Assembly: GCA_027314915.1 (NCBI GenBank)
Contig: DAHUZZ010000005.1
Location: 46,486-110,485, forward strand
Direction: 5' to 3'
Source: Thermoplasmata archaeon
GTDB taxonomy: Archaea; Thermoplasmatota; Thermoplasmata; Lutacidiplasmatales; UBA184
Length of the DNA stretch: 64,000 nucleotides
Shown: piece by piece, positions 20,661-63,874 of the stretch
Layout of the letters: every line of letters starts with the position of its first letter
How positions within the stretch are numbered: the stretch's first letter is position 1
The notes under the pieces: model-generated
Seen by the model: the letters and a program-made list of their open reading frames with translations, nothing else
Database searches by the model: none
What the model was told of the DNA's origin: nothing
Position numbers and translations under genes: made by a program

Positions 20661-20768
20661 GGCCGGGACCGAGACTCTCCGGGGTCGGGGGTCGGCCCCG
20701 TCCCCTTTTGAACCCGGGTCGAGGGATCCACAGTCCCCCAGGATAGACCAGACTACCCTATCCCGGCC
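20661..20768 (-). tRNA. tRNA-His(GTG) interrupted in the T-loop by a ~32-nt intron (about 20675-20706)
   Basis: Acceptor G(-1)GCCGGGA / TCCCGGC-C73, i.e. the His-specific G-1:C73 pair; D-loop AGTCTGGTCTA; anticodon arm GGGGA-CTGTGGA-TCCCT; T-stem CCGGG / CTCGG split by AGGGGACGGGGCCGACCCCCGACCCCGGAGAG. Confidence 0.9.
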
Positions 20769-20793
20769 GCAGGCGCCGGAGGAAGGGCTCCGC

Positions 20794-23259
20794 TCAAAAG
20801 GTTTGTTGCGCGGCACGGGGCGACGTCGCCGCGCTCCGCGCCGACGGGTCCGTCCCGGATCCTTCCTCGGACGTGGGGTCCTCCCGGGGCCTCGGCAGGG
20901 GTCCCCCGTAGATCATGGACGTGTCCGGGGGCGGCGTCCCGCGTCCCCGGCGCGCCCGCGGGTAGAAGACGGCGAGGAGCGCCCCCCCGGCGAGGACCGC
21001 GAAGGCGAGGAGGATCCCGTCGAGGGGCAGGATGCCGCCCCCCGAGGAGGCGGCGGGGAGCACGCTCACCGCGACGGTCGCGTTCGCGGAGAGGCCGTTC
21101 CCGTCGGTGACCTCGACCCGGATCGTCGAGGGGCCGGCGGAGCGCGGGATGCAGGAGAGGTGTCCGGCGCTCTGGCCCGAGCAGCCGGCGGGCAGCCCGG
21201 TCCAGACGAACAGGAACGGGGCGGTCCCGCCCGAGAGCGGGACGCTGAGGTTCATCTGGAGGCCGACGATGAGCTCCGTCGGCTCCACCGCGATCGCGCC
21301 CAGCTGGGGCCTCGCGTAGACGCGGTAGGGGAGCGCCGAGCGGGCGGAGAGCCCGTTCGAATCGGTGGCGGTGACGGCGATCCCGATGGACCCGTTCCCG
21401 GTGAAGGTGCAGTTGAAGGTGGGGCCGGTCCCGGGGCCGCACACGGCCCCGAAGGGCGGGGTCCAGTCGTACGAGTAGGGCGGCAGGCCGCCGGACGGCG
21501 TGACGGTGAACGTCGTCGACTGGCCGGTGTCCGCCGAGGTGCGGTTCGCGAGGGGGATCGGAAGGGTGATCGTCGGCTGGGTCGTGAACGGCAGCGATGG
21601 GGCGGTGACGGTGATCCCGCCCGCGTCGGTCACGTTGACCCGCACCGTGGTGCTGCCGGGAAGGACCGGCCGGCAGGCGAGGTCGGACCTGTTCGCGGGG
21701 GCGCAGCCGGAGGGCAGCCCGGTCCAGGTGAAGCGGTACGCCCCCGTCCCCCCGCTCGCGACGACCGTGAAGTTGACCGGCTGGCCCAGGTCGATCGAGG
21801 GGGGTTCGCTGGTCAGCAGCGGCGCCGCCAGCGGCGGGGCGTTCGCCGAGGCGATGAACGTCGACCAGTTCGCCCCGCTCCCGTCCACGTAGGTGCCGGC
21901 GATCCACACCCCCGTCGGGTTCTCCGGGTCGGCCGCGGCGGAGGAGCCATTGCCCCAGGCGCAGATGTGGGCCGGCGTGCAGGCCGTCCCGGCGACGCCG
22001 GCCCCCGCGACCACGAACGTGAGCGGGCCCAGCGTCCCGGGCTCGTTCGCGGGCTGCCCGAGCTCGACCAGCGACGGGTCGACGGTGCCGTTCGACAGCC
22101 CGGCAACGATCACGACATCCCCCCCGCCGTCGGAGGCGACCGCCGGGTCGAACAGACCCTGCCCGGCGCCCACGAGCCGGTCCACCAGGACCGCGCCCGA
22201 GGAGAGGTTCGCCCGGATCAGCTGGAGGCCGTCCGCGCCCCCGTCCGAGACGGTCCGGACCAGGAGGAGGATCCCGGCGTCGTCGGTGGCCCCGAACGCC
22301 CCCGCCGGCGGGGCCGCGAGCTCGGCGGCGGTGCCCGGCTGGGCGAGCGGGCGGGGGGCGGAGTACGGCGTGACCGTGATCGTCGAGCTCTGGACATTGA
22401 TCGGGTACGGCGGGACCCCGCTCGAGGCGGTGATGGTCAGCTGCGCCGGCCCGGAGGCGACGAACAGTCCGGACCGTGCGCTCCCCACGACGCCGACCGC
22501 CTGGGTGGTCGGGTCCACGCCGACCGGACCGAAGGTCGTCCGCTCGAGCGTCGCGCCGTTCCGGAGCGCCGAGCCGTTCACGATCCAGCACTGGGTGCCG
22601 AGGACCGCCCCGGTGCTCTCGTTCGCGGCCGGGGCCGCCACGGTCAGGACCGCTCCCCCTGCGCCGAGGGTCGGCGTCCCCAGCCGGTCCCCCGCGGCCG
22701 CCGGCAGCGAGTAGAAGCTCCACGCCCCGGTGGAGTTCGAGGAGTTGGACATCCCGATCTCGAGCGCCCCCGTGGTGGCGTCGGAGGCCGCGACGACGAA
22801 CCGGCCGAGGTAGGGATCGAACGACCCCGTGGGGCCGGTGAGGCGGTCGCCGGGGAGCCCGAAGAAGGTGGCGAGGGGGAGCGTGCGGAGCAGCGCGGCG
22901 CCCGAGGAGAACCATGCGGCATGCCCCTCGACGAGCTCGAGGGAGTCGTTGGGTCCCACCGCGTAGGAGACGTTCGTGCCCGCGCACCCGCACGCCGGTT
23001 GCGAGGAGTTGAGCCCGGAGAAGCCGGAGACCACCCCCGCCGGCGGCGGGACGAACGCCGACCGGGCCCCGGGAGCCGCCGTCCGCGCCGGCGGAGCGGC
23101 CGCCGGGTCGGACGCCGCGCCCCGGAGGATCGGCCGGGCGGTCCGCGCTCCCGCGCCCGGGACTCCCGGGGCCAGGGCGGCCAGCAGCAGGACCGTGGCG
23201 AGGCCGAGGGCCAGGAGGGGACCGTGGCGGGCGGCGGTGCGTCGGGCGGCCGGCCTCAT
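20794..23259 (-). CDS. Large secreted/surface protein with PKD/Ig-like repeats and C-terminal TM anchor
   Basis: N-terminal signal sequence ([17 protein letters not shown]), repeated 'GG.PPY.Y.W.GLP.GC' units, C-terminal TM DGILLAFAVLAGGALLAVFYPRARRGRG. Confidence 0.85.
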   Translation of the reverse strand: MRPAARRTAARHGPLLALGLATVLLLAALAPGVPGAGARTARPILRGAASDPAAAPPARTAAPGARSAFVPPPAGVVSGFSGLNSSQPACGCAGTNVSYAVGPNDSLELVEGHAAWFSSGAALLRTLPLATFFGLPGDRLTGPTGSFDPYLGRFVVAASDATTGALEIGMSNSSNSTGAWSFYSLPAAAGDRLGTPTLGAGGAVLTVAAPAANESTGAVLGTQCWIVNGSALRNGATLERTTFGPVGVDPTTQAVGVVGSARSGLFVASGPAQLTITASSGVPPYPINVQSSTITVTPYSAPRPLAQPGTAAELAAPPAGAFGATDDAGILLLVRTVSDGGADGLQLIRANLSSGAVLVDRLVGAGQGLFDPAVASDGGGDVVIVAGLSNGTVDPSLVELGQPANEPGTLGPLTFVVAGAGVAGTACTPAHICAWGNGSSAAADPENPTGVWIAGTYVDGSGANWSTFIASANAPPLAAPLLTSEPPSIDLGQPVNFTVVASGGTGAYRFTWTGLPSGCAPANRSDLACRPVLPGSTTVRVNVTDAGGITVTAPSLPFTTQPTITLPIPLANRTSADTGQSTTFTVTPSGGLPPYSYDWTPPFGAVCGPGTGPTFNCTFTGNGSIGIAVTATDSNGLSARSALPYRVYARPQLGAIAVEPTELIVGLQMNLSVPLSGGTAPFLFVWTGLPAGCSGQSAGHLSCIPRSAGPSTIRVEVTDGNGLSANATVAVSVLPAASSGGGILPLDGILLAFAVLAGGALLAVFYPRARRGRGTPPPDTSMIYGGPLPRPREDPTSEEGSGTDPSARSAATSPRAAQQTF

Positions 23260-23325
23260 GGGGAACGCCCCACCCACCGCCCGTGGGGGTATTTGTCCCT
23301 GTGCGCGAGCGGTCCGGACGTGCGC

Positions 23326-24324
23326 CTACCCCGCAAGCCCCGACTCGGGGCGCCCCGCCGGCACCGGTACCCATCCGCTCTTCGCGTGGAGGGAGCCGTC
23401 CGGGCCGATCCGGACCCGGACCGCGGCCGCGCGGCCGAACGCCCCGAATTCGAGCGAGTACCACTGCACGAGCCAGCCTCCGCCCGCGACCGGCTCGGCC
23501 ACGGCGGCGTGGTAGGTCTGGTCGATGATCGTGCTCGTGTGCCGCGCGAGCGGATAGCTCCGTTCGAGCGCCTCCCGCTCCGTGGCCACCGGGCCCTGGG
23601 CACCGTCGCTCTCGAGCGGGACGTCGACGTCGTGCGGACCGTCGACGATCCCCCGGCCGAAGCTGTAGCGGAGGTAGCCGGTCCGTATCCGCCCGTCGGC
23701 CCGCCGCTCGTACAGGAGGAGCCAGGAGAACGGATTGCCCGTCGGCGCGACGTGCGTGTAGCCCGGGAACTGCCGGCGCAGGGAACCCATCGAGAGCCGC
23801 CCGGCGAGCCGGATCGCAAGGTAGCCGCCGTAGAAGATCATCATCCCGTAGACCGTCCACGTGTAGACGGGGAACGGCACGCGGAAGCGCTCCGAGGCGA
23901 GCAGCACGATCGAGGTCACGCTCGCCACCAGCAAGATGAGGTTGATCGCCCGGTCGGCGTCCACCTCGAGGGGCCGCTCGCTGAAGGGCAGGAGCGGCGC
24001 GACCGAGAAGTGCGTGAAGGCATCCCCCAGCATGTGGCCGAGGCCGGCCGCCTCCATGACCAGGAAGTAGACGAGCGGCGCGCCCGGAAGGATCCGGGGG
24101 GCGATGACGAGGCCCCCGACGAGCGCGACCACCGTCACGCCGAGGATCGAGTGCGTGATCCCGTGGTGCCGGAGCACCGGGAACCGCTTCGCGATGGGGA
24201 AGAAGAGGATGTCGGCGTCGGGGAGCCCGCCCGCGAGCGCGCCCGCCGCGAGGTACTGCGGCGCGTAGCCGACGATGCCGTAGCTGATGAGGTAGCCTAG
24301 GATGACGTGGGTGAACAGGTCCAC
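23326..24324 (-). CDS. Membrane-bound metal-dependent hydrolase (YdjM/DUF457-like)
   Basis: MDLFTHVILGYLISY..GGLPDADILF..LRHHGITHSILG. Confidence 0.85.
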   Translation of the reverse strand: MDLFTHVILGYLISYGIVGYAPQYLAAGALAGGLPDADILFFPIAKRFPVLRHHGITHSILGVTVVALVGGLVIAPRILPGAPLVYFLVMEAAGLGHMLGDAFTHFSVAPLLPFSERPLEVDADRAINLILLVASVTSIVLLASERFRVPFPVYTWTVYGMMIFYGGYLAIRLAGRLSMGSLRRQFPGYTHVAPTGNPFSWLLLYERRADGRIRTGYLRYSFGRGIVDGPHDVDVPLESDGAQGPVATEREALERSYPLARHTSTIIDQTYHAAVAEPVAGGGWLVQWYSLEFGAFGRAAAVRVRIGPDGSLHAKSGWVPVPAGRPESGLAG

Positions 24325-24352
24325 GAGGCGGCCTCCCCGGCGTCGGGCGGGC

Positions 24353-24619
24353 TCACAGGAGCCCCTCCTCCATCACTTCGACGCTCTCGACGTGGGGCAG
24401 CTTCGAGAGCGCCTCCTCCGTGGCCTGGAGGACGCCGCCGGCGTCGCCCATCACGACCGAGAGGAGGAGCGCCTTGAGCCCGTAGGCGATGTCCTTGACC
24501 TGGAGCCCCCGCAGCGTGACCCCCGGGGGGAGGGCCCCGCGCACCGACTCGCCCAGCGCGCGCATGTCCGTGTCGACGCCCGTCGGCATGAGCCGGAAGA
24601 GCACCGCCACCTGACCCAT
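24353..24619 (-). CDS. ef1b: Translation elongation factor aEF-1 beta
   Basis: 88 aa; VLFRLMPTGVDTDM..VKDIAYGLKALLLSVVMGDAGG. Confidence 0.92.
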   Translation of the reverse strand: MGQVAVLFRLMPTGVDTDMRALGESVRGALPPGVTLRGLQVKDIAYGLKALLLSVVMGDAGGVLQATEEALSKLPHVESVEVMEEGLL

Positions 24620-24641
24620 CGCGCCCTCCCCGCCCGGACCC

Positions 24642-24812
24642 CTACGGACCCAGGAAGCCGCAGTTGGGGCAGCGGTACGGCACGCTCTGGTCGCGGCAGC
24701 GCGCGCACCGGCCGATGGTCGCCTGGCCGCAGCTCGGGCAGGGGAAATGGGTCGCCCCGCGCCCCGAGATCACCGTCCCGGAGGAGGTGCAGTGCAGCTC
24801 ATCGAGCGCCAC
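24642..24812 (-). CDS. Zinc-ribbon micro-protein (56 aa) upstream of aEF-1beta
   Basis: Manual translation (GTG start): [55 protein letters not shown]; four CxxC-type motifs. Confidence 0.85.
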
Positions 24813-24846
24813 GGTGGATCGATCCTCTTCTGCCGGCGGGGAAGAC

Positions 24847-25677
24847 CTAGCGCTTCCGTCCGCGGCGGCGCGCGCCAGACGTCGTGAGGAATATAAAGAT
24901 GGCTGCGACGAAGACCCCGCCGGCGAGGATGTAGTACGGCGTGTAGTTGATGGGCGAGGCCGTGACGTAGAAGCTCTGGCTGTAGAACTCCTGGCCGTTC
25001 GAGAAGACCACGAGCCCGTGCTCGTTGGCGAGGTTGATCGAGAAGGTGTGCTCGCCCGGCGCCAGGTTCTGGTTCACGTAGCTGAAGGCGATGGAGTAGC
25101 TCGAGTGGCCCGTCAGCGTGGGGACCGCGACCGAGCCCACGGGGGTCCCGTCCAGGAGGACCGAGAGGTTGAACGCGGCGGTGCCGATCCCCGACTCCAC
25201 GACGAGCTGCGCGCGGAGGCTGTAGGGCTGGACCACCTGGATCGCGTAGGAGAGGTTCGTCGAGACGTTCTGGCCCTGGTACCCGCTCGTGACGTCGACC
25301 GAGAGGACGAGCGACTGGGTCACGTTGCCCGCGGTCAGGGAGATCGTGGCGGTGCCGTTCGTGAAGACCCCGGCGGAGGGGAGCAGCGTCACCTGCGAGG
25401 TGTTGGCGCCCGCGACGCTCGCCTCGTAGGAGAGCGTGCCGACCTGGGTGCCGTTGAACCCGACGGCGGGTCCCCCGGTCACCGTCACGGTGTAGCTCCC
25501 CTTGAGCCCCTGGCCGACCACGTTGGGGCCGGCGATGTGGCCCGTGAGCGGGGGGTAGCTCGACGCGGCGTTCGCGCCCCCGGCGAGGGCGGCGAGGAGG
25601 AGGACCGGCGTCAGGAGCCCGACCGCGAGCGGCGTCCATCGCCGCGGGGCCCGGGCGGATGCCGGACGGGGGCTCAC
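24847..25677 (-). CDS. Secreted/surface protein with C-terminal TM
   Basis: Signal peptide [17 protein letters not shown]; extracellular beta-rich body; C-terminal [29 protein letters not shown]. Confidence 0.8.
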
Positions 25678-25684
25678 CGGCCGC

Positions 25685-28600
25685 TCACCTCCGGGTCCAC
25701 CGGCGGCTCCGCCACCAGCGGTAGGTGACCGCGAAGACCGCCACCGCGGCGGCCGGCACGAAGGCGAGCGCGACCGGCACCCAGATGGGGTAGGCGGGGG
25801 GGGTGCCGACCGACGGGCCGGTGATGGTGAGGGTGCCGTTGGTGATGCTCACGGGCAGCTCGCTCACCGTGAGCGTCGTGCTGACGGATTCCAGGGTGCC
25901 GTTCTGGAGCGTGGCCACCACGGTCACGGAGCCCGGCGGGACCGGCGAGTTCGTGGGCGAGGTCAACAGGACGCTGAAGGAGTTGTTCGACCCGGCGGAG
26001 ATCGTCGTGGACCCCGGCAGGGGCGTCGTCCCCTTGGCCACGACCGCGGTCCAGCCCAAGCTCGCGAGCCGCTGCGAGTCGGCGATCGTGAGGCGGACCC
26101 CCTCGGGGGCGTTGCCGGAGTTCACGACCCAGAACGGGAGCGTGGCGGAGTTGGGCGAGACCGCGCCCAGGGTCGGCGAGGCGCCGATGGCGAGACCCTG
26201 CACGGGGAGCAGCACGAGGGCGGGCGCGGGGCTCGCCACGCCGAGGAGCACGCCGCCCGGGCCCACCGCCTCGATGGCGATGGGCGGGTGGGCGACGGCG
26301 GTCCCGGCCGGCACGTGGATCACGACCTCGGCGTGGGCGCTCGAGTTGCCCGCGACGACGCCGAGGGAGAGGTTCTCCGGGGTGAAGTTGAAGGTCCAGG
26401 TGGACGGCGAGCCCACGAGGTGGAAGGCGACCGGCGAGGAGCCCGTGTTCGCGATCGCGAGCGAGAACGAGGCGAGACCCCCCGGCCCGATCGTCGCGGA
26501 GTCCGGTCCCTGGACGGAGATCCCGACCCGGGGCGTGAGCACGGGCACGAGGGTGACCCGGGTCGCCGCGTTCCCGCTCATCAGCGCCGCCGTGCCGGAG
26601 CCGTTCGTCGGCGTGGCGACGCCGTACGGCGCCGCGCTCGAGCTCGCCGTTATGATCCACACCCCGACGGGCAGCGCGTAGTCCGTGGGCGTGTTCACCG
26701 GGAGGCCCGAGAGGGAAAAGCCCACTCCGTCCGGACCGGTCCAGTTGACCTGCGCGACCGGGCTCGCGCCCGAGGAGGTGCTCTGGAGGGTGAGCGTGTC
26801 GATCCACGCCGGCCCGAGCGTCAGGTTGAGGTCGACCGGGTCCCCGTAGCCGATCGGGACCTGTTCGACGGTCGCGAGCCGCGATCCGCCGGACCCGCTC
26901 GTCGCGTAGAGGTCGTACAGGCCGGGGACGAGCGAGGCGGAGAAGCTCCCGCCCGCGACCGCGGTCGCGGTGGTGAGGTTCGCGGAGGGGTAGGGGCCGA
27001 TGAGGTCGATCGTGCCGGGCAGGAACGTGGTCTGGGCGCCGAAGGTGAGCGTGCCCACGACGGTGCTCCGGAGCACCTTCGCCGCGAGCGGCACGCGGCA
27101 GATGGTCAGGTTCGGCTGCTGCGTGCACGAGCTACCTGGGACCACGGTGTAGACGGTGTAGCGCGTGACGCCGCCGGGCACCACCGAGGGCACGGTGGTG
27201 GTCATCGACGGGTAGACGGTCATGCCCTCCGGGAGCAGCGCGGTGAAGCTCCCGGCGATCGCGACGGTGTCGAGCGTGTAGCCGCCCGGCGTGGTGAGCT
27301 GGACCGGGACGGTCCCGTTCACGGCGCCCCCGTTGGGCACCGAGAAGTTCCCCCGGAGGAGCCCGCCGGGTTGCGAGAGGTCGAGGGCCGGGTACACCCC
27401 GCCCGTCGACCCGACGGTGACGTGGGTCAGGTTCGCGAAGGTGATGTTGCCCGCGGACGCGGCCGCGAACACGGTGTAGCTGCCGGGGGCGGCCAGGAAG
27501 CTCGTGACGAACTGTTGCCCGGTCAGGTTCTGGTCGTACCCGGGGGCGGTCAGCCGGAGCGACACGGAGGTCGCCGGCACCCCCGCGGGCAGCTCGAGCA
27601 CGCCGCGCGAGGCGACCTGGTGGAAGAGGACGATGGAGAGGTTCTCCTGGTAGACGCCGGGCGGGAAGGTCACGTTGAGCGGCGCCGGCGGGCGGTAGAG
27701 GCCGCCGTTCACCGTCGTGGCGTAGGCGGTCACCGTGTAGGACCCGGGGACGATCGGCGTCGAGAACGTCGATCCGCCGGCGAGCGTGATCGTCTGGGCC
27801 GGCGGACGCGCTGCGGTCACGTTTACGTGGATGAGCGCGCCCGTGGGGAAGCCCGAGACGCTGAGGGTCAACTGGACGGTGGACAGGTCGAGCGGGATCG
27901 TGGAGAGCCGGGCGATCGCGGCCGGGTCGAGCCCGCACGCGAGGTAGGGGTCGAAGCCGAAGGAGGTCACCCCGACGCAGTAGCTCGCCCCCGCCGAGAC
28001 CGTGGCCGGGACCGCGAAGGTGGCATTGCCGGCGGAGTCGGCCACGCTCGTGAGGAGCGCGCCCGAGGGCTCTTCGGTGACGTTGACGAGGGCGCCCGAG
28101 GCGGGGTAGATGAGCTGGCCCCGCTCGAAGACCCCCAGGGAGGCATGGACCACCATGGCGGGGGAGAGCGAGAGGTTCACGAAGGTCGTCCCGGCGACGG
28201 CGAGCGAGGCGAGCGCGGCGTAGCCGATCCCGGTCCCGCCGGAGGGGGGCGCGGTGGCGCTCAGCCCGTAGGTGCCGGCGGGGAGGAGCAGGAGCCAGTC
28301 ACCGGAGAGGTTCGCCGACGCCGAGATGGTGTCACCGCGGGCGGTGTTCGCGGTGATGACGATGCTCGTCGGCGCCACGCCCGACGCGGGAGGGCCGGAG
28401 AAGCCGTGGACGGCGAAGGCCGGGGCGAGCGCGATCGGCTCGAGGGGGATGGTGCCCGTGAGCCCGGAGAGGTAGGCGGTCCCGAACCCCGCGTAGGCGC
28501 GGCCGCCCTGGTAGCCCACCGCGTAGATCGAATAGTTGCCCGTCGGGAGGGTCGCGACGATCTGGCCGCCGGGCCCGCTGTAGAGCGTCGTCGAGTTGAC

Positions 28601-31600
28601 GGTGGGGGGGCTCGCCGAGGCGTTCGACTGGTTCGCCGGGAGCGCGGAGGTCGCCACGATGGGCGTGAAGCGGACCGGGAAGTTCGCGACGGGGCTCCCC
28701 GCGGAGAGGACCACGAGGCTCACGGTGACCATGGGCTCGAGGGTGAGGTTCAGCGCGACGTGGGTGCCGTTGGTGCCGATGAGGAACGACTGCGGCACCG
28801 AGGCGAGGTCGTGCGACGGGTTCGTCGCCCGGATGGTGTAGTTGCCCGGCGCGAGGCTGCTCGCGGTGAACGCGCCGTTCGGACCGGTCACGAGCGTCGC
28901 CGTGGTCCCGCCCTGCTGCGAGAGGGTGACGGTCGCCCCGGTGCTCCCGCCCGGCACGGTGGAGAGGAGGTGCCCCCGGAGCTGGCCCGGCGTGAGGCCG
29001 ATCGAGAGGTTCTTCGCGTCCCCGGTGGCGAACGACTGGGGGCTCTGGGTGAAGTTGCTGCCCTGGTAGGTCACGGAGAGGTTGTAGCTGCCCGGCGGGA
29101 GGTTCGACAGGAGGTAGGTGCCGCTCGCGTCGGTGCGGGTGTGGAAGGCCGGCAGCCCGCCGCCGCCCCAGAGGTTGACGGTCGCCCCGGGGATGATCGT
29201 GTCCGAGGGTGGCTGGTAGGTCGTATTGTTCGCGTTGTTCCAGTAGAGCGTCCCCGAGATCTTCGCGGGCGCGAGGGTGAAGCTCCGAACGAGGGGCGGG
29301 GCGTCGAAGGCGTAGCCCAGGGCGGGCGCGACGTACAGGTGCGTCGTGCTCAGCGTCGTGGACCCGGCCTGGATGAGCCCGTTGAAGCTGCCCGAGGTCA
29401 CGTTCACCGTGATGTTACCGGGCGGGAGCGTGAGCGAGAAGCTCCCGTCCTTCGCCGTCACGGTGGTCTCGTGCGGGATGTTGAAGGCGTCGTAGACCGT
29501 CACCCGCGCCCCGGCCACGGGGGCCCCGTCGGGGAGCGTCACCGAGCCCAGCAGCGGCTGGCCGGCGTAGTAGGCGAGGATGCTGTTGCCGTTCGTGTAG
29601 TAGCTGCCCGCGGCGCCGTTCGTGACCGTCTCGGCGGTCCCGTTGGTGGCCTTCGCGAGCGCGATCGCCTCCGGCTGGTTCATCGCCACGCAGCCGTTCC
29701 CGCCCGTCGAGCCGTGGGGGCAGTAGAAGGCGGTGATGTAGACCGCCCGGAAGTGCTGGAGCATCCAGCCCGGCTCCGGGTAGTAGCCGCTCCCGATGGC
29801 GCCCTCGAGCCCCGGGATCCCGCCCGACTGCCCGATGTCGCTCCCGTTGTATCCGGCGAAGACCCGGTAGATCATCGAGTTGTAGAACGGGGCGAACCGG
29901 TTGATGTTGTAGCTCACCGCCGAGACCGTCGGCGGGACCTGCCCGGCCGGGTAGGTGTTGCCGTCGGAGCCCAGGACGGTGACGTTGAAGAACGCCGAGG
30001 GGGTGCCGCCCGGCCCGATCACCCGGTCGGTGAGGTCGGCCGGCGCGTAGAAGATGCCCGTGTTCGACCCGCTCACGGGGAAGAGCCGGGTGTCGACCAT
30101 CGCGTAGCGGATCGACCAGCCCGTGTAGGCCTGGAGGTCGTCGTAGAGGTTCGCGACCCCGGAGAGCGGGACCGTGTCCGCGAGGTACCACGACGTCGCC
30201 ATGAACATCGCGTTCAACGGGTCCAGGTGGGTCGGGTCCACGGGCAGGTACCGCTCGGGGTGCGCGATGACGAGCGGGACGTCCTGGGAGGTGTTGACCA
30301 TCAGGTCGTGGACCTCGGTCGCGTTCACGCCGTTCGCGACCAGGATCCGGTTGATCCCCGACGTGAAGTAGCGCTGGCCCGACGTGATCTGGTTCGCGTA
30401 GAGCAGCTGGATCGCCAGCACCGAGATCGCCTGGGACTCGTTCTGCGAGAGCAGGAACGCTCCCGCCGGTACGATCCCGTTCTGGAAGTTGTCGGCGACG
30501 GTCGGATGCTGCCCCTGCCCGACGGTCTGGAACCCGTAGTCCCACCAGCTGATGAACGCCGGACGTTGGGGTTCGGGCAGATTCGTATCTTGCGAAGCGA
30601 GCCAGTTGTAGCTCGCCGAGTCGTACTGGTCCGGCGTGTCGAGCGAGGTGCCCGCGGCGCCCAGGTAGAACGTCGAGGCGTTCGCCGCGGAGGTCCGAAT
30701 CGGCGCCGGGAGCGTGTCGTAGATCTGCGTGTTGTAGCCGCTCTTCAGGTTGTAGGGGACCCCGGCGTCGATCGCGTACCAGACGTTCGGGATCAGGATG
30801 AGGAGGAGCAGCCCCATCACGAGGAAGTGCCGGGCCTTGAGCGAGCGGCGGAAGGCGGTGAACTGGCTCCGGCGATCGGAGAGGGACGCCACGTTCCGGC
30901 GCAGCTGCCCGTAGCCGGCGATGTCGAGGATCATCACCAGCACCTCCGCCGCGAGGAGGATGAACACCGCACTCCCCAGGAGGAAGAACTTCGCCGCGGT
31001 GATCGGCAGGTAGACCGAGATGAGCGCGAACACGAAGAACATCGTGTGCTCGCGTCGGAACTTCTGGCGACCGAGCTTGTAGGCGTACAGGCCGAGCCCG
31101 ACGAAGGCGATGAAGAAGGTCAGGACGCCGAAGCCCAGGATCAGCGAGTCGATCGACGGCGCCTGCGCCTCGGCGACGGTCGAGTAGACGAGGGTCTTGA
31201 CGAAGTAGCCCTGCCCGGTGATGATCGTGCTGAACGAGTGGGGGCTCGCGACGAACAGGATCCCGACCGCCGCCGCCGCCGTCAGGACGAAGGCCGGGAT
31301 GGAGACGACCCAGGGGTAGTCCCGCAGGAGGAGGAACGGCAAGAGGACCACGAGGGAGCCGAAGAAGACCAGGAGCGGGATCTCGAACCAGCTCAGGAAG
31401 AAGCCGTTCAAGCTGTTGCCGCCCTGGACGAAGAAGTACGGCATCGCCATGGGGAAGCCGACGAGGCCGACGACCCAGGTGAGCACGTAGAGGGAGAACG
31501 AGTCGACGCGGCGGATCCGCTCGACGATCATCTGGACGACGAGGAATCCGACGAGCGCCGCGATGAAGAACGGGTAGCCCTGCCAGGAGAGGGCGAGGGC

Positions 31601-32311: not shown

Positions 32312-32370
32312 GACGCGGCAAAACCTCCGTCGGCCGCGGCGCGCAGACGGGGGGGTCTATAAATAGACTC

Positions 32371-32961: not shown

Positions 32962-32966
32962 CCTCC

Positions 32967-35799: not shown

Positions 35800-35807
35800 G
35801 GATCCTC

Positions 35808-43641: not shown

Positions 43642-43653
43642 GAGCCCCTCACC

Positions 43654-46835: not shown

Positions 46836-46945
46836 AGATCATGCGACAGTTCGGGTCGGTTCGCGGGCGAAACGTCGGGCGACCACGAGACCGGGGAGGG
46901 TAAAGGTTTATCCTACGCCCCTCCGCCGACGGAGGCGCCCGGCGC

Positions 46946-48768: not shown

Positions 48769-48770
48769 GG

Positions 48771-49457: not shown

Positions 49458-49470
49458 GCGGCGGGCTCCC

Positions 49471-49707: not shown

Positions 49708-49799
49708 CGTCGGCGGGACCCGGGGTACTCGGATAACGGTTTGCCGGCGTCGGACCCCGGAACGGATAAGCGGGGGCCAGTTCCCCCCGTCCGACGGTC

Positions 49800-50945: not shown

Positions 50946-50955
50946 AGGGCCGCGC

Positions 50956-52875: not shown

Positions 52876-52938
52876 GTTCCTTACCTTGGAGCTTCCGATC
52901 CGGGCGGACCGTGCCGCCCGACGTGATTCCAACAACGG

Positions 52939-52955
52939 ATAGTTAGCGCTACTAT
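52939..52955. promoter_or_regulatory. Palindrome ATAGT-TAGCGCT-ACTAT abutting the dnaK TATA box
   Basis: 5-bp perfect arms around TAGCGCTA; TATA (minus strand TTTTTATAG) immediately upstream of it. Confidence 0.45.
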
Positions 52956-53173
52956 AAAAATATGACTTAACGGAGAGTCCTGGCGACACGCCGGTCCTCG
53001 CATCGATCCTCCGGGCGAGGGGACCTCAAGCCCGGCGGGCAGAAAAGGCTGCCCGAACTTCTCGCCCCGCCTCCCTCGCCCCGCGCCCTCCACGGGGTCG
53101 CGCGGGACCCCCCGCGATGGGACCCGCCGGTGCGGCGGGGCTTTATCACGGGCTGGTCGCTGCCGCCGAGCCG

Positions 53174-55611: not shown

Positions 55612-56436
55612 CTAGCGGTACATCGGACCGGTCGCCGGGACCGGCGTTTCGCCCCGCGCCCGGTCCTGGGCGTGGCGCTGGATCGAGAGGAGCTGCTGCT
55701 CGATGCGCTCCGCCTCGTGGTAGAGCGGGTCCGGATCGAGCGGGGTGTGCAGGAGGACCCGGTTGATCGTCTCGATCACCTTCGCGGCGGCCCGCGCGTC
55801 GGGGTACTCCGCCTGCGCCTCGGCCAGAAAGGTGAGCACGTCGAAGCCGCGGCGGCGCCCCTCGTTGAGGAGGACCCCCGCGATGCCGGTGATGACCCCC
55901 TCGTTGAACGGGACCAGGTTGGGCTCGATGTAGAGGTCGCGGGCCTTCTTCGTGCTGGCCACGCCGTAGACCTTGACGTCCTGGAACCGCGGTCCGCGCG
56001 GGGCCGTCTTCTCCGGCGCCGCCTTCTCGACGCTCAGCCCCTCGGGCGAGACCAGGAGCGAGCAGCGCTGTTCCTGCGCCCAGTCCAGGATCGTCGTCGC
56101 GAGCGGGTGGATGACCGTCGGCGCCGGGTGGAACTCCGAGACGAACGCCACGATCCGGTCGGCGACGCGCCCCGCCCGTCCGGGCTGGGGGCTCCCGGCG
56201 TAGATGCGGACCGGATGCTGCGGGTTGCCGTTCCGGACCAGGGAGACGGTCGGGAACGCCGGCGACTCGACGATCCCGATCTGCTCCATCTCGAGCGTGT
56301 CGATGAGGTAGTTCGCCACGATGGAGCTCACGAGCCCCACCGAGGGGAACCCGTCGATGACGATCGCGCCCTCGACGTCGATGCGCTTGATCTCGTAGAT
56401 GCGGACCCCGTTCGGGTCCAGCGCCTCCCGCGTCAC
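55612..56436 (-). CDS. PAC2-family (proteasome assembly chaperone-like) protein
   Basis: VEGAIVIDGFPSVGLVSSIVANYLIDTLEMEQIGIVESPAFPTVSLV..GVITGIAGVLLNEGRRRG. Confidence 0.88.
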   Translation of the reverse strand: MTREALDPNGVRIYEIKRIDVEGAIVIDGFPSVGLVSSIVANYLIDTLEMEQIGIVESPAFPTVSLVRNGNPQHPVRIYAGSPQPGRAGRVADRIVAFVSEFHPAPTVIHPLATTILDWAQEQRCSLLVSPEGLSVEKAAPEKTAPRGPRFQDVKVYGVASTKKARDLYIEPNLVPFNEGVITGIAGVLLNEGRRRGFDVLTFLAEAQAEYPDARAAAKVIETINRVLLHTPLDPDPLYHEAERIEQQLLSIQRHAQDRARGETPVPATGPMYR

Positions 56437-56792
56437 AGGGAGCGCTCGACGATCTGACCCAGCTCCTTGCTGAAGAGGTCGACCATGTCGCGCGTCAGCT
56501 GCTCGCGGATCTCCTTCGGCACGGCGGCCAGACCGAGGCGGGCCGTGCAGGCGCCCACGCGGAGCAGCGCGGCGTACTCCTGGGCGCGCGCCTCGAGGAG
56601 CGCCCGGACGGCGTCCTTGAGGTCCTGCTCGAGCGCCGGGTTCTTCTCGAGGGTCTTCTCGAGGTGGTGCCGGATCTCCGCCTTGACGATGTCCCGCGTC
56701 GCCTCGCGGACGAGCTCCTCGGGCCGGAGCAGGTCGCGGGTGCTGCGGACCAGGATGTCGAGCGGGCCCTCCCCGCCGTCGTCCCCCGCCAT
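56433..56792 (-). CDS. Hypothetical helical protein
   Basis: 119 aa; 4-nt overlap with the PAC2 gene start. Confidence 0.65.
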   Translation of the reverse strand: MAGDDGGEGPLDILVRSTRDLLRPEELVREATRDIVKAEIRHHLEKTLEKNPALEQDLKDAVRALLEARAQEYAALLRVGACTARLGLAAVPKEIREQLTRDMVDLFSKELGQIVERSL

Positions 56793-56935
56793 CGGGCGTA
56801 CGGAGCCGGGGGGACGGATAAACCTTGGTTTGCTGCCGCGCGACCGGCGGCGGCCGCTCGGCGGGGGATCCCCGGGCCCTCCGCGCCGCCGCGCGGAAAG
56901 GCTTATCCCCGGGCGACCTTCGGCGGCGCGGACGT

Positions 56936-57041
56936 GGGCCGGTAGATCAGTCCGGAAGATCGCTACCTTGGCAAGGTAGAGGCCGCGAGTTCAAACGGCG
57001 CCGGGGACCGACCCCGCCGCCGGAGATTCTCGCCCGGTCCA
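56936..57041 (+). tRNA. tRNA-Ala(GGC) interrupted in the T-loop by a ~32-nt intron (about 56996-57027)
   Basis: Acceptor GGGCCGG/CCGGTCC-A with the alanine identity wobble G3:U70; D-arm GATC-AGTCCGGAA-GATC; anticodon arm CTACC-TTGGCAA-GGTAG; T-stem GCGAG/CTCGC split by CGGCGCCGGGGACCGACCCCGCCGCCGGAGAT; promoter AAAGGCTTATCC about 35 nt upstream. Confidence 0.92.
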
Positions 57042-57068
57042 CTCCTCCGTCCGTCGCCCATCGATAAC

Positions 57069-57089
57069 TGTCGAACCCCCCGAACGACA
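57069..57089. promoter_or_regulatory. Inverted repeat TGTCG-N11-CGACA upstream of the HTH/HMGCS operon
   Basis: Located just upstream of TATA-like CCTAAATAC (about 57100-57108). Confidence 0.3.
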
Positions 57090-57132
57090 TCCAGAAACAA
57101 CCCTAAATACCCCGCCCCATCTCGACGCCGAC

Positions 57133-57810
57133 GTGGAAATCGAGCTTCGGGAGAAGATGGCCGGGGAGGTGGTGCTGTCGCCCCACCCGGGACGGACGCT
57201 CCGGAAGTGGCGGGAGGACTTCGGGATCTCCCAGCGCGACCTCGCGAAGCGGTTGTCGACGGTCCCCTCCGTCGTCTCCGACTACGAGTCCGAGCGCCGC
57301 GCGAGCCCGGGGGCCGCGTTCATCCGCCGGTTCATCGACGCCCTGCTGCAGGCCGACGGCCAGAACGGCGGCCGGGTCGCCCAGCGGCTCGGGCTCCGCC
57401 CCCACTCCGACGGCATCGTCGGGATGCGCGAGTTCGCGGTCGCCATCCCCCTCAAGGCGCTGGCCGAGCACCTCAAGGCGAAGCCCGTGAGCCACGTCGA
57501 CCTCCACCGCGACATCCACGGCTACACCCTCCTCGACGCCCCCCGGGCGATCCTCTCCATCGACGCCTCCCGGTTCGTGGAGGTCTACGGCTGGTCGACC
57601 CAGCGCGTGCTCATCTTCGCGAACGTGCGGTTCGGGCGCTCGCCGATGGTCGCGATCCGGGCCCATCCGATGAAGCCCGCCGCGGTCCTCTTCGCGAACC
57701 CCGGCCGGATCGACCCGCTCGCCGTGCGGCTGAGCGAGGTCGAGAACATCCCGCTCCTCAGCACCGCCCTCGGACCCTCGGAGGTCCTGGAACGCGTCGA
57801 AGAGCTGTGA
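57133..57810 (+). CDS. HTH (Xre-type) transcriptional regulator
   Basis: [53 protein letters not shown] start, leaderless promoter. Confidence 0.88.
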
Positions 57811-57832
57811 AGGAGACCTGGAGGAACCTCGG

Positions 57833-58885
57833 ATGGACGTAGGGATCGTGAGCTACGGAGCGTACGTGCCCCGGTACCGGATCACGCCAGGGGAGATCGG
57901 CCGGGTCTGGGGCGCCGACGGCGAGGGGATGGGCGCCTCGCTCAACGTGAAGCGGAAGTCGGTCCCGGCACCGGACGAGGACACCATCACCATCAGCACG
58001 GAGGCGCTCCGCGTCGCGCTCCTCCGCGGCGCCATCGACCCCCAGGAGATCGGGGCCATCTACGTCGGGAGCGAGTCGCATCCCTACGCGGTCAAGCCCA
58101 CGGCGACGGTGGTCGCGCAGGCGGTCGGGGCGACCCCGTACCTGACCGCGGCCGACTTCGAGTTCGCCTGCAAGGCGGGCACGGCGGCGATCCAGACCTG
58201 CATGGGGCTCGTGGGCAGCGGGATGATCCGCTACGGCATCGCCATCGGCGCCGACACGAGCCAGGGCGCGCCGGGCGACGCCCTCGAGTACAGCGCGAGC
58301 GCCGGCGGCGCGGCGTTCGTCATCGGCCGGGAGCACCTGATCGCCCGCATCCGGCACACCGCGAGCTACACCACCGACACGCCGGACTTCTGGCGGCGCG
58401 AGGGCCAGCGGTACCCGAGCCACAGCGGCCGGTTCACCGGCGAGCCCGCCTTCTTCCGGCACGTCACCGAGTGCGCGCGCCGGATGTTCGAGGTCGCGGG
58501 CACCCAGCCGCGGGACTACCAGCACGTGGTCTTCCACCAGCCCAACGGCAAGTTCCCGCAGCGGGTCGGCAAGCAGCTCGGGTTCACCGAGGAGCAGATG
58601 CGCTACGGCCTGGTCACGCCCTACATCGGCAACACCTACTCCGGAGCGGCCCTGATCGGGCTCGCCCACGTCCTCGACCACGCCGAACCGAAGGACCGGA
58701 TCCTCGTCGTGGGGTACGGCAGCGGCGCCGGCTCCGACGCCTTCGACCTGGACGCGACGGAGGAGGTCGGGGAGCTCGACCGCAGCTTCGGCCAACCGGT
58801 CTCGGAGTTCCTGGAGCAGGGCATCGAGCTGCCGTACGCGGTCTACGCGAAGTTCCGCGGCAAGATCCACATGGGGGGTTCGTAG
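57833..58885 (+). CDS. Hydroxymethylglutaryl-CoA synthase (archaeal)
   Basis: [66 protein letters not shown]. Confidence 0.94.
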
Positions 58886-60055
58886 ATGCGCGAGGTCGCC
58901 GTCATCGGCGCCGGCATGACCCGGTTCGGCGAGCTCTGGGACCTCTCCTTCCGGGAGATCGGGATCGAGGCGGGGTTCCAGGCGCTCGTCGACGCCAAGC
59001 TCAGCTCGCACCAGCTGAACGCCTTCTACCTCGGCAACATGGCGAGCGGCTCGCTCCTCGAGCAGGAGCACATCGCCCCGCTCGTCATCGACTACGCCGG
59101 GCTCGCCGGCCACCACGTCGGGGCGATCCGGGTGGAGGCGGGCGGCGCCTCGGGCGCGGTCGCGCTCCACCAGGGCTACCTGGCGGTCGCGAGCGGCGCC
59201 TACGACTACGTGGTCGTGGGGGGCGCCGAGAAGCTCACGGACGTGCCGGACTTCACGGCGAACCGGATCTCCGGCTCCACCGCCGACCAGGAGTGGGAGT
59301 CGGTCTTCGGCGCGACGCTCCCGGGGCTCTGGGCCCTGGTCGCGCGCCGCCACATGCACGACTACGGCACGACGCGCGAGCAGCTCGCGCACGTCCCGGT
59401 CCAGGCCCACGCGATGGGCGCGAAGAACCCGAACGCGCACTTCCGCAACAAGATCACGCTCGAGACGGTCCTGGGCGCGGGCCCCGTGGCGGAGCCGCTC
59501 GGCGTCTTCGACTGCGCCCCGCTGAGCGACGGGGCGGCCGCCGTCGTGCTGGGGCCGATGGACGAGGCGAAGAAGCACCAGGAGATCCCGATCCGCATCG
59601 CGGCGAGCCAGGTCGCCTGCGACACGATGGCGCTCCAGCACCGCCGCGAACTCACCACGCTGGAGGCGACGGTCACGGCCGCCCGCCAGGCGTTCGCGCT
59701 GGCGCACCGGGCGCCGGCCGACGTGCAGGTCGCCGAGATCGACGACTCCTACTCCATCGCGGCGCTGGTCGCCCTCGAGGATTTGGGCTTCGCCGAGAAG
59801 GGGAAGAGCGGCGCGCTCTTCGCCCAGGGCGCCTTCGCCCCCGGGGCGAGGACGGTCGTGAACCCCTCCGGGGGGCTCAAGGCGCAGGGCCGGCCCTTCG
59901 GCGCCGTCGGCGTGGCGCAGGCGGTGGAGGTCGTGCGTCAGCTGCGCGGCCAGTCCGGCGAGCGCCAGGTCCCCGGGGCCCGCCTCGGGCTCACGCACAA
60001 CATCGGGGGGACGGGCGCCACGGCGGTCGTCCACCTTTTCGAGCGGGTGAACTAG
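58886..60055 (+). CDS. Acetyl-CoA acetyltransferase (thiolase)
   Basis: VAVIGAGMTRFGELWD, VEAGGASGAVALHQGYLAVASGAYDYVVVGGAEKLTD, NPSGGLKAQGRPFGAVG. Confidence 0.93.
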   Translation: MREVAVIGAGMTRFGELWDLSFREIGIEAGFQALVDAKLSSHQLNAFYLGNMASGSLLEQEHIAPLVIDYAGLAGHHVGAIRVEAGGASGAVALHQGYLAVASGAYDYVVVGGAEKLTDVPDFTANRISGSTADQEWESVFGATLPGLWALVARRHMHDYGTTREQLAHVPVQAHAMGAKNPNAHFRNKITLETVLGAGPVAEPLGVFDCAPLSDGAAAVVLGPMDEAKKHQEIPIRIAASQVACDTMALQHRRELTTLEATVTAARQAFALAHRAPADVQVAEIDDSYSIAALVALEDLGFAEKGKSGALFAQGAFAPGARTVVNPSGGLKAQGRPFGAVGVAQAVEVVRQLRGQSGERQVPGARLGLTHNIGGTGATAVVHLFERVN

Positions 60056-60067
60056 GGGGGAACGAAG

Positions 60068-60568
60068 ATGGCGACCACCATCGCACGGTACTGGCGCGAG
60101 ACGCCCCGACGGTACAACCTGGGCGGCAGCCGCTGCACGGTCTGCCGGACCATCTACTTCCCGCCCCGCTCCGTCTGCCCGAGCTGTTCCACGCATCGGC
60201 AGTCGCTCGGCAAGATGGAGCCCTTCCAGCTCTCCGGCGAGGGGGAGGTGTACTCGTTCTGCACCGTGCACGATGCCGCCGAGGGGTTCGAGATGGAGGT
60301 CCCCTACGTCCTCGCGCTGGTGAAGACACGGGAGGGCCCGCTGCTCACCGGTCAGGTCGTCGACCTGCCGGCGGAACGGGTCCGCATCGGGCTCAAGGTC
60401 CGGGCCACCTTCCGGAAGCTGAGGGAGGAGGGCAAGGCCGGCGTGATCCACTACGGGTACAAGTTCTCGCCCGCGGAGGAGCCGCCCCCGCACCGTCGCC
60501 CGGGACGTTCTTCGGAGCCGTCCCGATCGGGGACCCCGGCCCCCGAGGAAGGGCGCGTCCGGGCGTGA
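60068..60568 (+). CDS. DUF35 OB-fold/zinc-ribbon bridging protein
   Basis: RYNLGGSRCTVCRTIYFPPRSVCPSCSTHRQSLGKMEPFQLSGEGEVYSFCTVH. Confidence 0.92.
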   Translation: MATTIARYWRETPRRYNLGGSRCTVCRTIYFPPRSVCPSCSTHRQSLGKMEPFQLSGEGEVYSFCTVHDAAEGFEMEVPYVLALVKTREGPLLTGQVVDLPAERVRIGLKVRATFRKLREEGKAGVIHYGYKFSPAEEPPPHRRPGRSSEPSRSGTPAPEEGRVRA

Positions 60569-61332
60569 CCGCCGACCCGCGGCGCGAGCCGAAGTCGCCC
60601 GGCGCCCTCCCCTACGGGGACGAGACCTACGCGGACGGCTTCGCGGCCGGCTACGGCGAGGGGCTCCGCGAGGGGCTCCGGGAGGTCCTCGGCCATGTCA
60701 CGCGGGGCCACACGGTCGCCGAGCTGAGGATGCTGGTCGAGAGCCGGCTCGCGCGGATCCACGAGGACGTCGAGCTCAAGCGGAAGAGCCTCACGAACCC
60801 CCCGCAGCGGACCCCCTGGACCGCCCTCCTGAGGACCCCCCGGCCCGCGCCGCGGCCCGTGGGGGAGCCGGCCCTGCCGGAGTTCGCCTTCGGGCGGTCC
60901 TACCTCTTCCGGGAGGAGCGGCCCGACCGTGCGCTCGCCTTCCTGCGCCGGGTCGCCCCCGAGCACGCCCGGGTGCTCTGGGTGAGCCAGCAGCCCCCGC
61001 CCGAGCTCGGCGGGGGCGGGGCGGACCGGGTCGTCCCGATCCGGCCGACGGCGCGCGCCGGAGGGGACGGGAGCGTCCCGGGGGTCGGACCCGGCGAGAT
61101 CGCGGGCCGGATCCAGACGCTGTGCGGCGGCGGACCCCCGGTCGTCGTCTTCAGCGATGCGCTCGAATACCTCCTCTCCGAGTACGGTCCCGAGACGACC
61201 GTGCGGTTCGCGATGTGGCTTCCACCGTGGGCGCAGGAGTCCGGGGGCACCGCGATCGTCTCGCTCGATCCCGGTACGATGGCCGAGCAGGACCTGAGGA
61301 GGGTCCAGAAGGCCTTCACGAGCCTCGTCTAG
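60565..61332 (+). CDS. DUF835-like protein
   Basis: GTG start; C-terminal PVVVFSDALEYLLSEYGPETTVRFAMWLPPWAQESGGTAIVSLDPGTMAEQDLRRVQKA. Confidence 0.75.
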   Translation: MTADPRREPKSPGALPYGDETYADGFAAGYGEGLREGLREVLGHVTRGHTVAELRMLVESRLARIHEDVELKRKSLTNPPQRTPWTALLRTPRPAPRPVGEPALPEFAFGRSYLFREERPDRALAFLRRVAPEHARVLWVSQQPPPELGGGGADRVVPIRPTARAGGDGSVPGVGPGEIAGRIQTLCGGGPPVVVFSDALEYLLSEYGPETTVRFAMWLPPWAQESGGTAIVSLDPGTMAEQDLRRVQKAFTSLV

Positions 61333-61339
61333 CCCGAGC

Positions 61340-62548
61340 ATGGAGATCGCCTGCTTTTCCGACAGCTACCTTCCGATCCGCGACGGCGTGGCCGTCGAGG
61401 TGCACGCGCTCGCGCGCGCGCTCCAGCGGCTCGGCCACGGCGTGACGGTCTACGCCCCCGAGCCCGTCGCGGGCGCGCCGAGCCGGACCGAGGAGCTCGA
61501 CGGCGTCCCCGTCGTCCGGGTCCGGTCGCTCCCCGTCCCGATCTACCGCGAGTACCGGTGGGCGATGTTCCCGTTCCCCCATGTCGCCGGCCGCGACTTC
61601 GGCCAGAGCGTGGACGTCGTCCACGCGCACACGCCGGGGATCCTCGGCACGACGGCGCTCTTCGCCGCGCGCCGGTACCGGCGGCCGATCGTCGGCACCT
61701 TCCACACCGACGTCTACGCGGCCCGGGAGAGCTTCCAGAGCCACCGGCTGCTCAAGCTGTTCTTCTGGGTCGCCCGGTGGTACTCCCTGGGCGTGTACTA
61801 CCGGTGCGACGTGACCACGGTGCCGAGCCTGCCGGCCCGGGAGGCGCTGCTCTCGCACGCCCGCAAACCGTTCCGCCAGCCGGTCGAGGTGGTCCCCAAC
61901 GGGATCGAGGTCGACCGCTTCCGGCCGGGGCTCGGCGTGCCGGACTGGCGGAGCCGGTGCGGGTTCCCGGACGGCCCGCTCCTCACCTTCCTGGGCCGGC
62001 TCACCGCCGACAAGGGGATCCACCGGTTCCTGGACGCCCTGCACACCCTGCCGGCGGGCGAGCCGTGGTCGGCGGTCATCGCCGGCGGGGGGCCGGAGGA
62101 GCCCGCGATCCGGGCGCGGCTCCGTTCCGATCCCCGGCTCGCGTCCCGGGTCCGGTACGTGGGGCCCGTCGCCGAGGAGGAGAAGGCCGCGCTCCTCTCC
62201 CAGACCGACCTCTTCGTGCTGCCCTCGATCGCCGACACCTCCTCCCTCGCCGTGCTCGAGGCGATGGCCTCGGGGGCGGCCTGCGTGGTCTCGGACGTCG
62301 GCGGCCCCAGCGCCATCGTCCAGGAGGGGCGGACCGGACGGATCGTGCCGGTGGACGACCCGGCGCCGCTCCGGGGGATCCTGACGGAGCTGCTCGCCGA
62401 GCCGGCGCAGCGCGCGCGGCTCGCGGCGGCGGCGACGCGGTGGGTCCGCGACGAGGCCTCGATCGAGGCGACGGCGCGGCGCTTCGTCGCGCTCTACCGG
62501 GACGTGCTGGGCGAGGGAACGGTGCGCGGGACCCTCGCGCCCGGCTGA
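61340..62548 (+). CDS. Glycosyltransferase family 4
   Basis: MEIACFSDSYLPIRDGVAVEVHALARALQRLGH, VVPNGIEVDRFRPG, FVLPSIADTSSLAVLEAMASGAACVVSDVGG. Confidence 0.92.
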   Translation: MEIACFSDSYLPIRDGVAVEVHALARALQRLGHGVTVYAPEPVAGAPSRTEELDGVPVVRVRSLPVPIYREYRWAMFPFPHVAGRDFGQSVDVVHAHTPGILGTTALFAARRYRRPIVGTFHTDVYAARESFQSHRLLKLFFWVARWYSLGVYYRCDVTTVPSLPAREALLSHARKPFRQPVEVVPNGIEVDRFRPGLGVPDWRSRCGFPDGPLLTFLGRLTADKGIHRFLDALHTLPAGEPWSAVIAGGGPEEPAIRARLRSDPRLASRVRYVGPVAEEEKAALLSQTDLFVLPSIADTSSLAVLEAMASGAACVVSDVGGPSAIVQEGRTGRIVPVDDPAPLRGILTELLAEPAQRARLAAAATRWVRDEASIEATARRFVALYRDVLGEGTVRGTLAPG

Positions 62549-62677
62549 AGGGTCCCGGGGCGCGCGCCCGCGCCCGGGCGGAGGGGGCTTCGGGGCCCGG
62601 GACGCTCCTCGAGGCGGGCTCCACGGGAGGCTTATCTCCCTGGACGGACGTCGTACGGCTGGAAGGGTCCGAGCCTC

Positions 62678-63766
62678 GTGGCGCGTCCCACGTCGGAGGA
62701 GCTCAACGCGATCGCCCGGATGGGCGGCCCGACGGCGCACGCGCGCTACAGCGAGCTCGCGCTCAAGCGGGCGGTCGACGAGTACCTCCCGCGTCGCCGC
62801 GACATGATCGCGCCGGTGGAGCTCCGGGTCGACGGCCGGGCGTATCCGCACCTGTTCGCCGCCCTCGCGGAGGTCTCGGTGGCCTTCGGGGAGATCGAGC
62901 TTCGCCGGAAGGGAGCGCCCCCGGAACCGGCCCGGTGGGAGTTCCTGCGCCCGTTCGACCGCCTCACCGTGCGGAGCCAGGGCGGCAGCGAGGCCCAGAC
63001 CGGGCCCGAGCCCGCCCGGAGGGTCATGGCCCGCCTCCTCCTCCGCGAGCAGTACGTGCCCATGGCCGCGCCGGGGGAGCGCCCCGCTCCGCCGCCGTCC
63101 CGCCCGTCCCCCCGGCCCGAGCTCTTCAGCCCCGCGACGCTCGCCCGGTACCTCCGCGCCACGGGCGTCGTTCCGTTCGCCCTTGCGATCGCCGTCTACT
63201 ATCCCGACGAGCGGGTCCGCTACGAGGTCGATCTCCTCGACTCGCAGCTCGAGGTGGACCCCCGCAGCCGGCGGATCTCTCCCGAGCGGCGCGTCCGGCG
63301 CGCGGCCCGGATCGGGCACGCGGTCGACCTCCTCGCGAGCGGCGGGGAGCTGTCGATGCCGTCGATCCGCGCCCTCGAGACGGTGGTCGAGACGAACGGG
63401 CTCACCGCGGTGGAGATGGCCCCGGTCTTCGGGGGCGTCCGGGAGCTCGGGGCCTCGGCGCTCGACTCGCTCGTCGCCCGGAAGCTCCTCGCGCTCGATC
63501 CCCGATCGGGGGTGTACGCCCCCCGGCTCGACGCCATCACCGCCTCGGTCGCGCGCGCCCCCGGGGCGGCGAGCGCCTCGCGCGTGGACCCCCGGCTCCG
63601 ATCGAACCTGGCCGAGCTCATCGCCCAGGCGGAGGCCAAGGCGAGCTGCCCGCTCTGCGGCGATCCGCTCCCGACCCCGCGCCGCGGGATCCTGTGCGCG
63701 AAGTGCCAGTCCCTCGTCGGCGGGGGGAGCCCCTCCGCCCCGCCGGGCGAGCCGCGCGGAAGGTAG
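62678..63766 (+). CDS. Hypothetical protein with C-terminal zinc ribbon
   Basis: 362 aa; ASCPLCGDPLPTPRRGILCAKCQSL; GTG start, promoter GGCTTATCTCC. Confidence 0.65.
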   Translation: MARPTSEELNAIARMGGPTAHARYSELALKRAVDEYLPRRRDMIAPVELRVDGRAYPHLFAALAEVSVAFGEIELRRKGAPPEPARWEFLRPFDRLTVRSQGGSEAQTGPEPARRVMARLLLREQYVPMAAPGERPAPPPSRPSPRPELFSPATLARYLRATGVVPFALAIAVYYPDERVRYEVDLLDSQLEVDPRSRRISPERRVRRAARIGHAVDLLASGGELSMPSIRALETVVETNGLTAVEMAPVFGGVRELGASALDSLVARKLLALDPRSGVYAPRLDAITASVARAPGAASASRVDPRLRSNLAELIAQAEAKASCPLCGDPLPTPRRGILCAKCQSLVGGGSPSAPPGEPRGR

Positions 63767-63767
63767 G

Positions 63768-63874
63768 CGGGCCTGTCGGGAGTCTCCGCCCGGGAGCGTG
63801 GGCCTCCCGGACCTTTGAACCCGAGATTGCCGGCTTAGAAGGCCGGTACTTTATCCAGGCTAAGCTACAGGCCC
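63768..63874 (-). tRNA. tRNA-Arg(TCT) interrupted in the T-loop by a ~32-nt intron (about 63782-63813)
   Basis: Acceptor GGGCCTG/CAGGCCC-G; D-arm GCTT-AGCCTGGATA-AAGT; anticodon arm CCGGC-CTTCTAA-GCCGG; T-stem TCGGG/CCCGA split by GGTCCGGGAGGCCCACGCTCCCGGGCGGAGAC. Confidence 0.92.

Follow-up and report, generated by a model that had tools for sequence, protein, structure and literature searches.

How does an archaeon mature tRNAs whose genes are broken within the T-loop? The question is raised by a 64,000-nt stretch of DNA from a Thermoplasmata archaeon of the Lutacidiplasmatales (contig DAHUZZ010000005.1, positions 46,486 to 110,485; hereafter, the window). All three tRNA genes of the window, those for His(GTG), Ala(GGC) and Arg(TCT), carry an insert in the T-loop, at the positions given by a first-pass annotation made from the sequence alone. 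We put at about 0.93 the probability that these inserts are tRNA introns of the archaeal, protein-spliced kind, located at 59/60, with the T-loop itself forming half of a bulge-helix-bulge (BHB) splice motif, an alpha'2-type tRNA splicing endonuclease (EndA) removing them, and the whole set inherited since before the genera of the family split.

Three interrupted genes

The tRNA-His(GTG) gene (20661..20767, minus strand; mature length, 75 nt) is interrupted by a 32-nt intron at 20675..20706, tRNA-Ala(GGC) (56936..57041, plus strand; 74 nt) by one of the same length at 56996..57027, and tRNA-Arg(TCT) (63768..63874, minus strand; 75 nt) by another at 63782..63813. A covariance model built from ten T-loop-intron genes of the source genome (R1) scores them at 96.8 (E = 7e-20), 91.0 and 100.2 bits, respectively. 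All three combine A57 with G at intron position -6, intron positions being counted from the 3' end (-1, -2 and so on). With the insert excised in silico, each gene regains a complete acceptor stem (7/7 pairs), a complete T-stem (5/5) and the T-loop TTCAAAT. When the 3' half was placed at each distance from A59 in the range 0-249 nt, with both stems required to re-form, 32 was the sole gap that succeeded for His and Ala (random rate, 0.00018 per offset), and stem restoration at this gap is far above chance. For Arg(TCT) the scan returned, besides 32, one decoy at gap 1, which lacks U60. This decoy is the 3' end called by ARAGORN and Rfam; it ends at 63798/63799, inside the intron. The 5' part of this intron (GTCCGGGAGGCCC; window 63798-63813, minus strand) mimics the T-stem and the 3' half of the acceptor, misleading both programs. 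Ordinary tRNA models miss or misplace T-loop-intron genes: two of the three in the window were missed and the third was given a wrong 3' end. As a result of such omissions, His and Asp look absent in annotation.

Two features first described as common to the inserts needed widening. The length of 32 nt is exact in all three but is only the mode in the family, where introns range from 24 to 41 nt. Likewise, the 3' end GGAGAN does belong to a recurrent motif, the general form of which is [G/C/U]GRRAN.

The T-loop as half of a predicted splice motif

Motif statistics were drawn from 153 parsed introns, from the family and from outside it. After intron removal, the acceptor stem is complete (7/7) in all 153 genes and the T-stem (5/5) in 152. 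In 99-100% of cases, intron positions -3, -4 and -5 form pairs with U54, U55 and C56, respectively, as against 71-83% one step off register, bearing out the proposed pairing of the T-loop UUC with the intron end, which reads GGA or GAA. The pairing extends to base 57. Introns in G57 tRNAs have C at -6 in 69 of 72 cases; in A57 tRNAs (n = 81), position -6 is never C but G in 57, U in 22 and A in 2. Eight isoacceptors switch base 57 between genomes, and 78 of their 79 genes obey this rule; when position -6 was shuffled inside isoacceptors, the mean was 53.6 concordant genes and none of 5000 shuffles reached 78. Control positions -8, -7, -5, -4 and -3 stayed at chance level in the same test. Allowing one vote per isoacceptor and state, the 57:-6 association remained (Fisher p = 7e-8). 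The adjoining intron hairpin opens with a pair between intron base 2 and position -7 in 94-97%.

Taken from these sequences, the predicted motif is near-canonical: T-stem, 3-nt bulge, four-step helix, 3-nt bulge and intron hairpin. The first-pass annotation had read it as a relaxed BHB with a 3-bp centre. This description leaves out a fourth pair, 57:-6. G57 tRNAs form it as a Watson-Crick pair, and nearly all of them have the full 4-bp central helix; the description holds better for A57 introns, which conform to the BHB only in part (A-U in 22/81, A.G in 57/81) and mostly have three pairs plus an A.G mismatch. Outside the family, A57 introns are mostly A-U (13/19), as opposed to the A.G preference inside it. 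Since the two bulges are each 3 nt long and the usual BHB cut falls after the second base, the boundary is fixed at exactly 59/60, which removes the ambiguity of 1-2 nt allowed for earlier.

We infer the following order of events. In the transcribed precursor, the T-stem would form the outer helix of the BHB, and U54, U55, C56 and base 57, paired with -3, -4, -5 and -6, the central one. The 5' bulge would be A58-A59|N1 and the 3' bulge -2,-1|U60, with the intron hairpin as the inner helix. A homodimeric alpha'2 EndA would cleave each bulge 3' of its second base, and ligation of the exons would yield a TTCRAAT T-loop. Given the near-invariance of U54-U55-C56 and A58-A59 in all tRNAs, any tRNA could host such an intron, which has to supply only the [G/C/U]GRRAN end and a hairpin. 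The 57:-6 covariation thus suggests that the T-loop supplies half of a near-canonical motif and that a broad-specificity enzyme is unneeded.

The splicing endonuclease

EndA is encoded outside the window by one open reading frame comprising two tRNA_int_endo (PF01974) units; the catalytic residues Tyr, His and Lys are retained. Its best matches are 5x89 and the Archaeoglobus fulgidus entries 1r0v/2gjw. The same two-unit layout and catalytic residues were found in 30 further Thermoplasmata genomes (31 in total). Neither separate alpha and beta chains nor a three-unit chain with a CSL/ASL loop describes the EndA of this genome. Judged by this layout, the enzyme of the lineage is of the two-unit alpha'2 type, like that of A. 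fulgidus, and not the alpha2-beta2 or epsilon2-like broad endonuclease that had been expected. A CSL/ASL-like loop was suspected at one point, there being 6 residues more than in A. fulgidus, and was discarded when the EndA of Methanocaldococcus jannaschii, of narrow specificity, proved about equally long there.

The reading first offered, a broad-specificity endonuclease acting on relaxed BHBs, is the strongest competitor of an alpha'2 enzyme acting on a T-loop motif, although an unlikely one. It would account for the A57 introns of the family, mostly A.G at the fourth step. It conflicts with the full 4-bp centre of G57 introns and with the alpha'2 layout of EndA in 31/31 Thermoplasmata genomes. 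None of these EndA sequences has a loop insertion ahead of the LSL[IV]E motif, the place at which the chimera 3p1y departs from wild-type A. fulgidus; that 3p1y carries the insertion there is itself deduced from the alignment together with PMC6379350. The near-canonical 59/60 motif fits an alpha'2 enzyme better than it does a broad one. The homodimeric EndAs studied in Ferroplasma acidarmanus (PMC8707768) and in Thermoplasma acidophilum (PMC6379350) come from the same archaeal class and are of the same enzyme type, with no natural T-loop substrate set described there. At 30 C the Ferroplasma enzyme accepts as substrate a minimal BHB that lacks a tRNA body (PMC8707768), which matches the need of a T-loop site.

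Several points weigh against this account of the introns. In the family, the fourth step of A57 introns is A.G in 51/62, leaving the motif one pair short of canonical, and nearest-neighbour folding of the A.G introns rates an open internal loop as more stable by about 3-4.5 kcal/mol. Narrow specificity has been reported for alpha'2 enzymes (PMC6379350), and the A.G form might therefore escape cleavage. Finally, the source assembly (1.85 Mb, 76 contigs) is 84% complete. A speculative extension, to which we attach little probability, is that the intron serves as a maturation checkpoint: its pairing with U54-U55-C56 would keep the T-loop from docking with the D-loop, and U54/U55 from being modified, until EndA acts, and the family's EndA would be adapted to A57.G(-6), as an alpha'2 enzyme with a preference for the T-loop.

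Distribution across Thermoplasmatota

Strong R1 matches (E at most 1e-13) number 6-11 per genome in 62/62 sampled genomes of the family and 0-3 in other families of the class and phylum; these counts are lower bounds, with 10-13 candidates scored per genome. The suggestion that T-loop introns occur lineage-wide is thus supported. A T-arm pattern found matches in 61/61 family genomes (2-9 each), all reversed controls together yielding one. A looser phylum-wide pattern, GTTCRAAN{18,34}NRRRANTC, matched reversed controls about equally in low-GC genomes and is useless outside the GC-rich family.

The named loci contained 48 T-loop-intron tRNAs, all on Lutacidiplasmatales-like contigs; named loci from other Thermoplasmatota gave weaker R1 matches only, and none of those read has a T-loop intron. 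By the HMG-CoA synthase encoded in the window, the closest named relatives are Thermoplasmata metagenome-assembled genomes such as AcS1-45, SubAcS13-64 and AcS5-116; AcS1-45 and AcS5-116 have been classed as Ca. Lutacidiplasmatales (PMC9287336). In named relatives, interrupted Ala-GGC and Arg-TCT genes occupy conserved places upstream and downstream, respectively, of the HMG-CoA synthase gene. In 9/9 catalogued family genomes, which represent six genera, the interruption is present in His, Asp, Ser-GCT, Ala-GGC and Gly-TCC. Departures also occur: the Arg-TCT gene of locus L097 (18551-18625) is without an intron at the syntenic place where relatives carry one, and Ser-CGA and Asn point to loss or non-gain in some family genomes. 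Outside the family, single T-loop introns are present in Arg-TCT, His, Arg-CCG and others. Therefore, the trait predates the family and has expanded within it.

Intron history

Intron similarity was compared within and across isoacceptors, genera and genomes, against a shuffled baseline of 0.345. Introns of the same isoacceptor score 0.52 within a genus and 0.46 across genera. Those of different isoacceptors average 0.380 inside one genome, exactly as they do across genera, and no near-identical introns were found between different isoacceptors, the best pair reaching 0.75. Resemblance within isoacceptors but not between the isoacceptors of one genome implies inheritance by isoacceptor, with losses or non-gains. 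The set was probably in place by the time the sampled genera of the family split and has been handed down since, with some losses. The apical sequence CCGACC is present in 14/102 family introns, as compared to a mean of 2.2 and a maximum of 6 in 200 shuffles; it could reflect either shared ancestry or selection acting on the loop.

These figures bear on the proposal of a recent proliferation, in which introns would transpose within the genome as in Thermoproteales. The site, length and 3' motif common to many isoacceptors would be explained by such copying, as would the excess of CCGACC. Different isoacceptors are, however, no more alike within a genome than between genera, falling below the 0.46-0.52 seen for the same isoacceptor, and recent copying is thus unsupported; we regard it as quite improbable. 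Copying may have taken place earlier, before the genera separated.

Twelve T-loop introns among about 40 tRNA genes

Introns at 59/60 interrupt 12 of the approximately 40 tRNA genes found in the source assembly: His, Ala-GGC, Arg-TCT, Arg-TCG, Asp, Glu-CTC, Gln-CTG, Gly-TCC, Ser-GCT, Ser-GGA, Lys-TTT and Leu-TAG. They are 24-37 nt long in this genome. Five genes have only an intron at 37/38 or in the D-loop, and 23 have none. Hence, the idea that every tRNA carries a T-loop intron fails genome-wide, the 3/3 count being an accident of the window. A search of the genome with the pattern GTTCNANN{20,50}GGAGA returned mostly coding-sequence noise and was dropped. Intact, un-inserted His, Ala or Arg copies elsewhere, which would have marked the window genes as pseudogenes, were sought in the assembly; no uninterrupted copy of any of the 12 isoacceptors was found, the interrupted genes including the sole His and Asp genes found.

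Splicing of these introns, as proposed above, has two remaining competitors. The hairpin is stable, and the mature tRNA might retain the insert as a lengthened T-arm. Very little probability attaches to this: the insert would destroy the T-loop required for the tRNA elbow, what selection maintains is a splice motif, as seen in the 57:-6 covariation and in A at -2, and the genome encodes EndA. That the interrupted genes are pseudogenes or non-functional copies, as the failure of ARAGORN and Rfam to see most of them as normal tRNAs might suggest, is less probable still, given that all stems are intact, that no second His, Asp, Ala-GGC, Arg-TCT or other such gene was found in the assembly, that the same genes are interrupted family-wide and that compensatory change keeps the pairing.

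Relation to known systems

Position 59/60 is among the listed non-canonical sites of archaeal tRNA introns, and the splice motif has been termed transplantable (PMC4090602). The tRNAscan-SE 2.0 survey reports 673 non-canonical introns in 217 archaeal genomes, with Thermoproteales as the rich group (PMC8450103). Thermoproteales and other Crenarchaeota share with the present set protein-spliced BHB introns and the 59/60 site; their introns lie at scattered sites and are served by (alpha-beta)2 enzymes (PMC4090602), whereas here one site dominates (12 T-loop introns, 4 in the D-loop, 3 at 37/38), the enzyme type is alpha'2 and recent intron copying of the Thermoproteales type is not seen. The Asgard lineages Atabeyarchaeia and Freyarchaeia, also from soil, have many non-canonical tRNA introns as well; more than half of their tRNA genes are multi-intron, and the main text of that report describes no T-loop-specific set (PMC11291895). 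In the red alga Cyanidioschyzon merolae, tRNA introns lie in the D, anticodon and T arms, and a T-arm intron is removed from a nuclear pre-tRNA (PMC9602550). This is a eukaryote with a different endonuclease, and single genes are concerned instead of a conserved set. In a search that did not cover subscription journals, we came upon no paper describing T-loop introns from Thermoplasmatota or Lutacidiplasmatales; single introns of this kind may have been reported earlier from Thermoplasma. Thus, the intron type is already known; its fixed, one-site set in an acid-soil family of Lutacidiplasmatales appears not to have been reported before. The set amounts to a large, vertically kept group of introns at one non-canonical site, in archaea with a simple alpha'2 endonuclease that the literature ties to canonical motifs, and offers about 150 natural substrates for probing how alpha'2 EndA reads the central helix.

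Introns at other positions

Introns at or adjoining 37/38 are found in the genes for elongator Met, Tyr and Leu-TAA. D-loop introns are present in four genes: Lys-TTT (L159, G000 C2:10814-10955), Leu-TAG (L160, C17:4366-4516), initiator Met (L028, C7) and Arg-GCG (L063, C28:6560-6665). Lys-TTT and Leu-TAG combine a D-loop with a T-loop intron in one gene. The Lys-TTT D-loop intron is 31 nt long in five genomes, and its central helix shows a compensatory change between genera, UAGG/CCUA versus UCGG/CCGA; by this pairing, it would follow the same principle in another loop. The Gln-CTG and Leu-TAG genes form a conserved tandem, about 30 nt apart and with T-loop introns in both (G000 C17:4229-4516; G068 C4:297459-297760; G010 C3:341105-341389).

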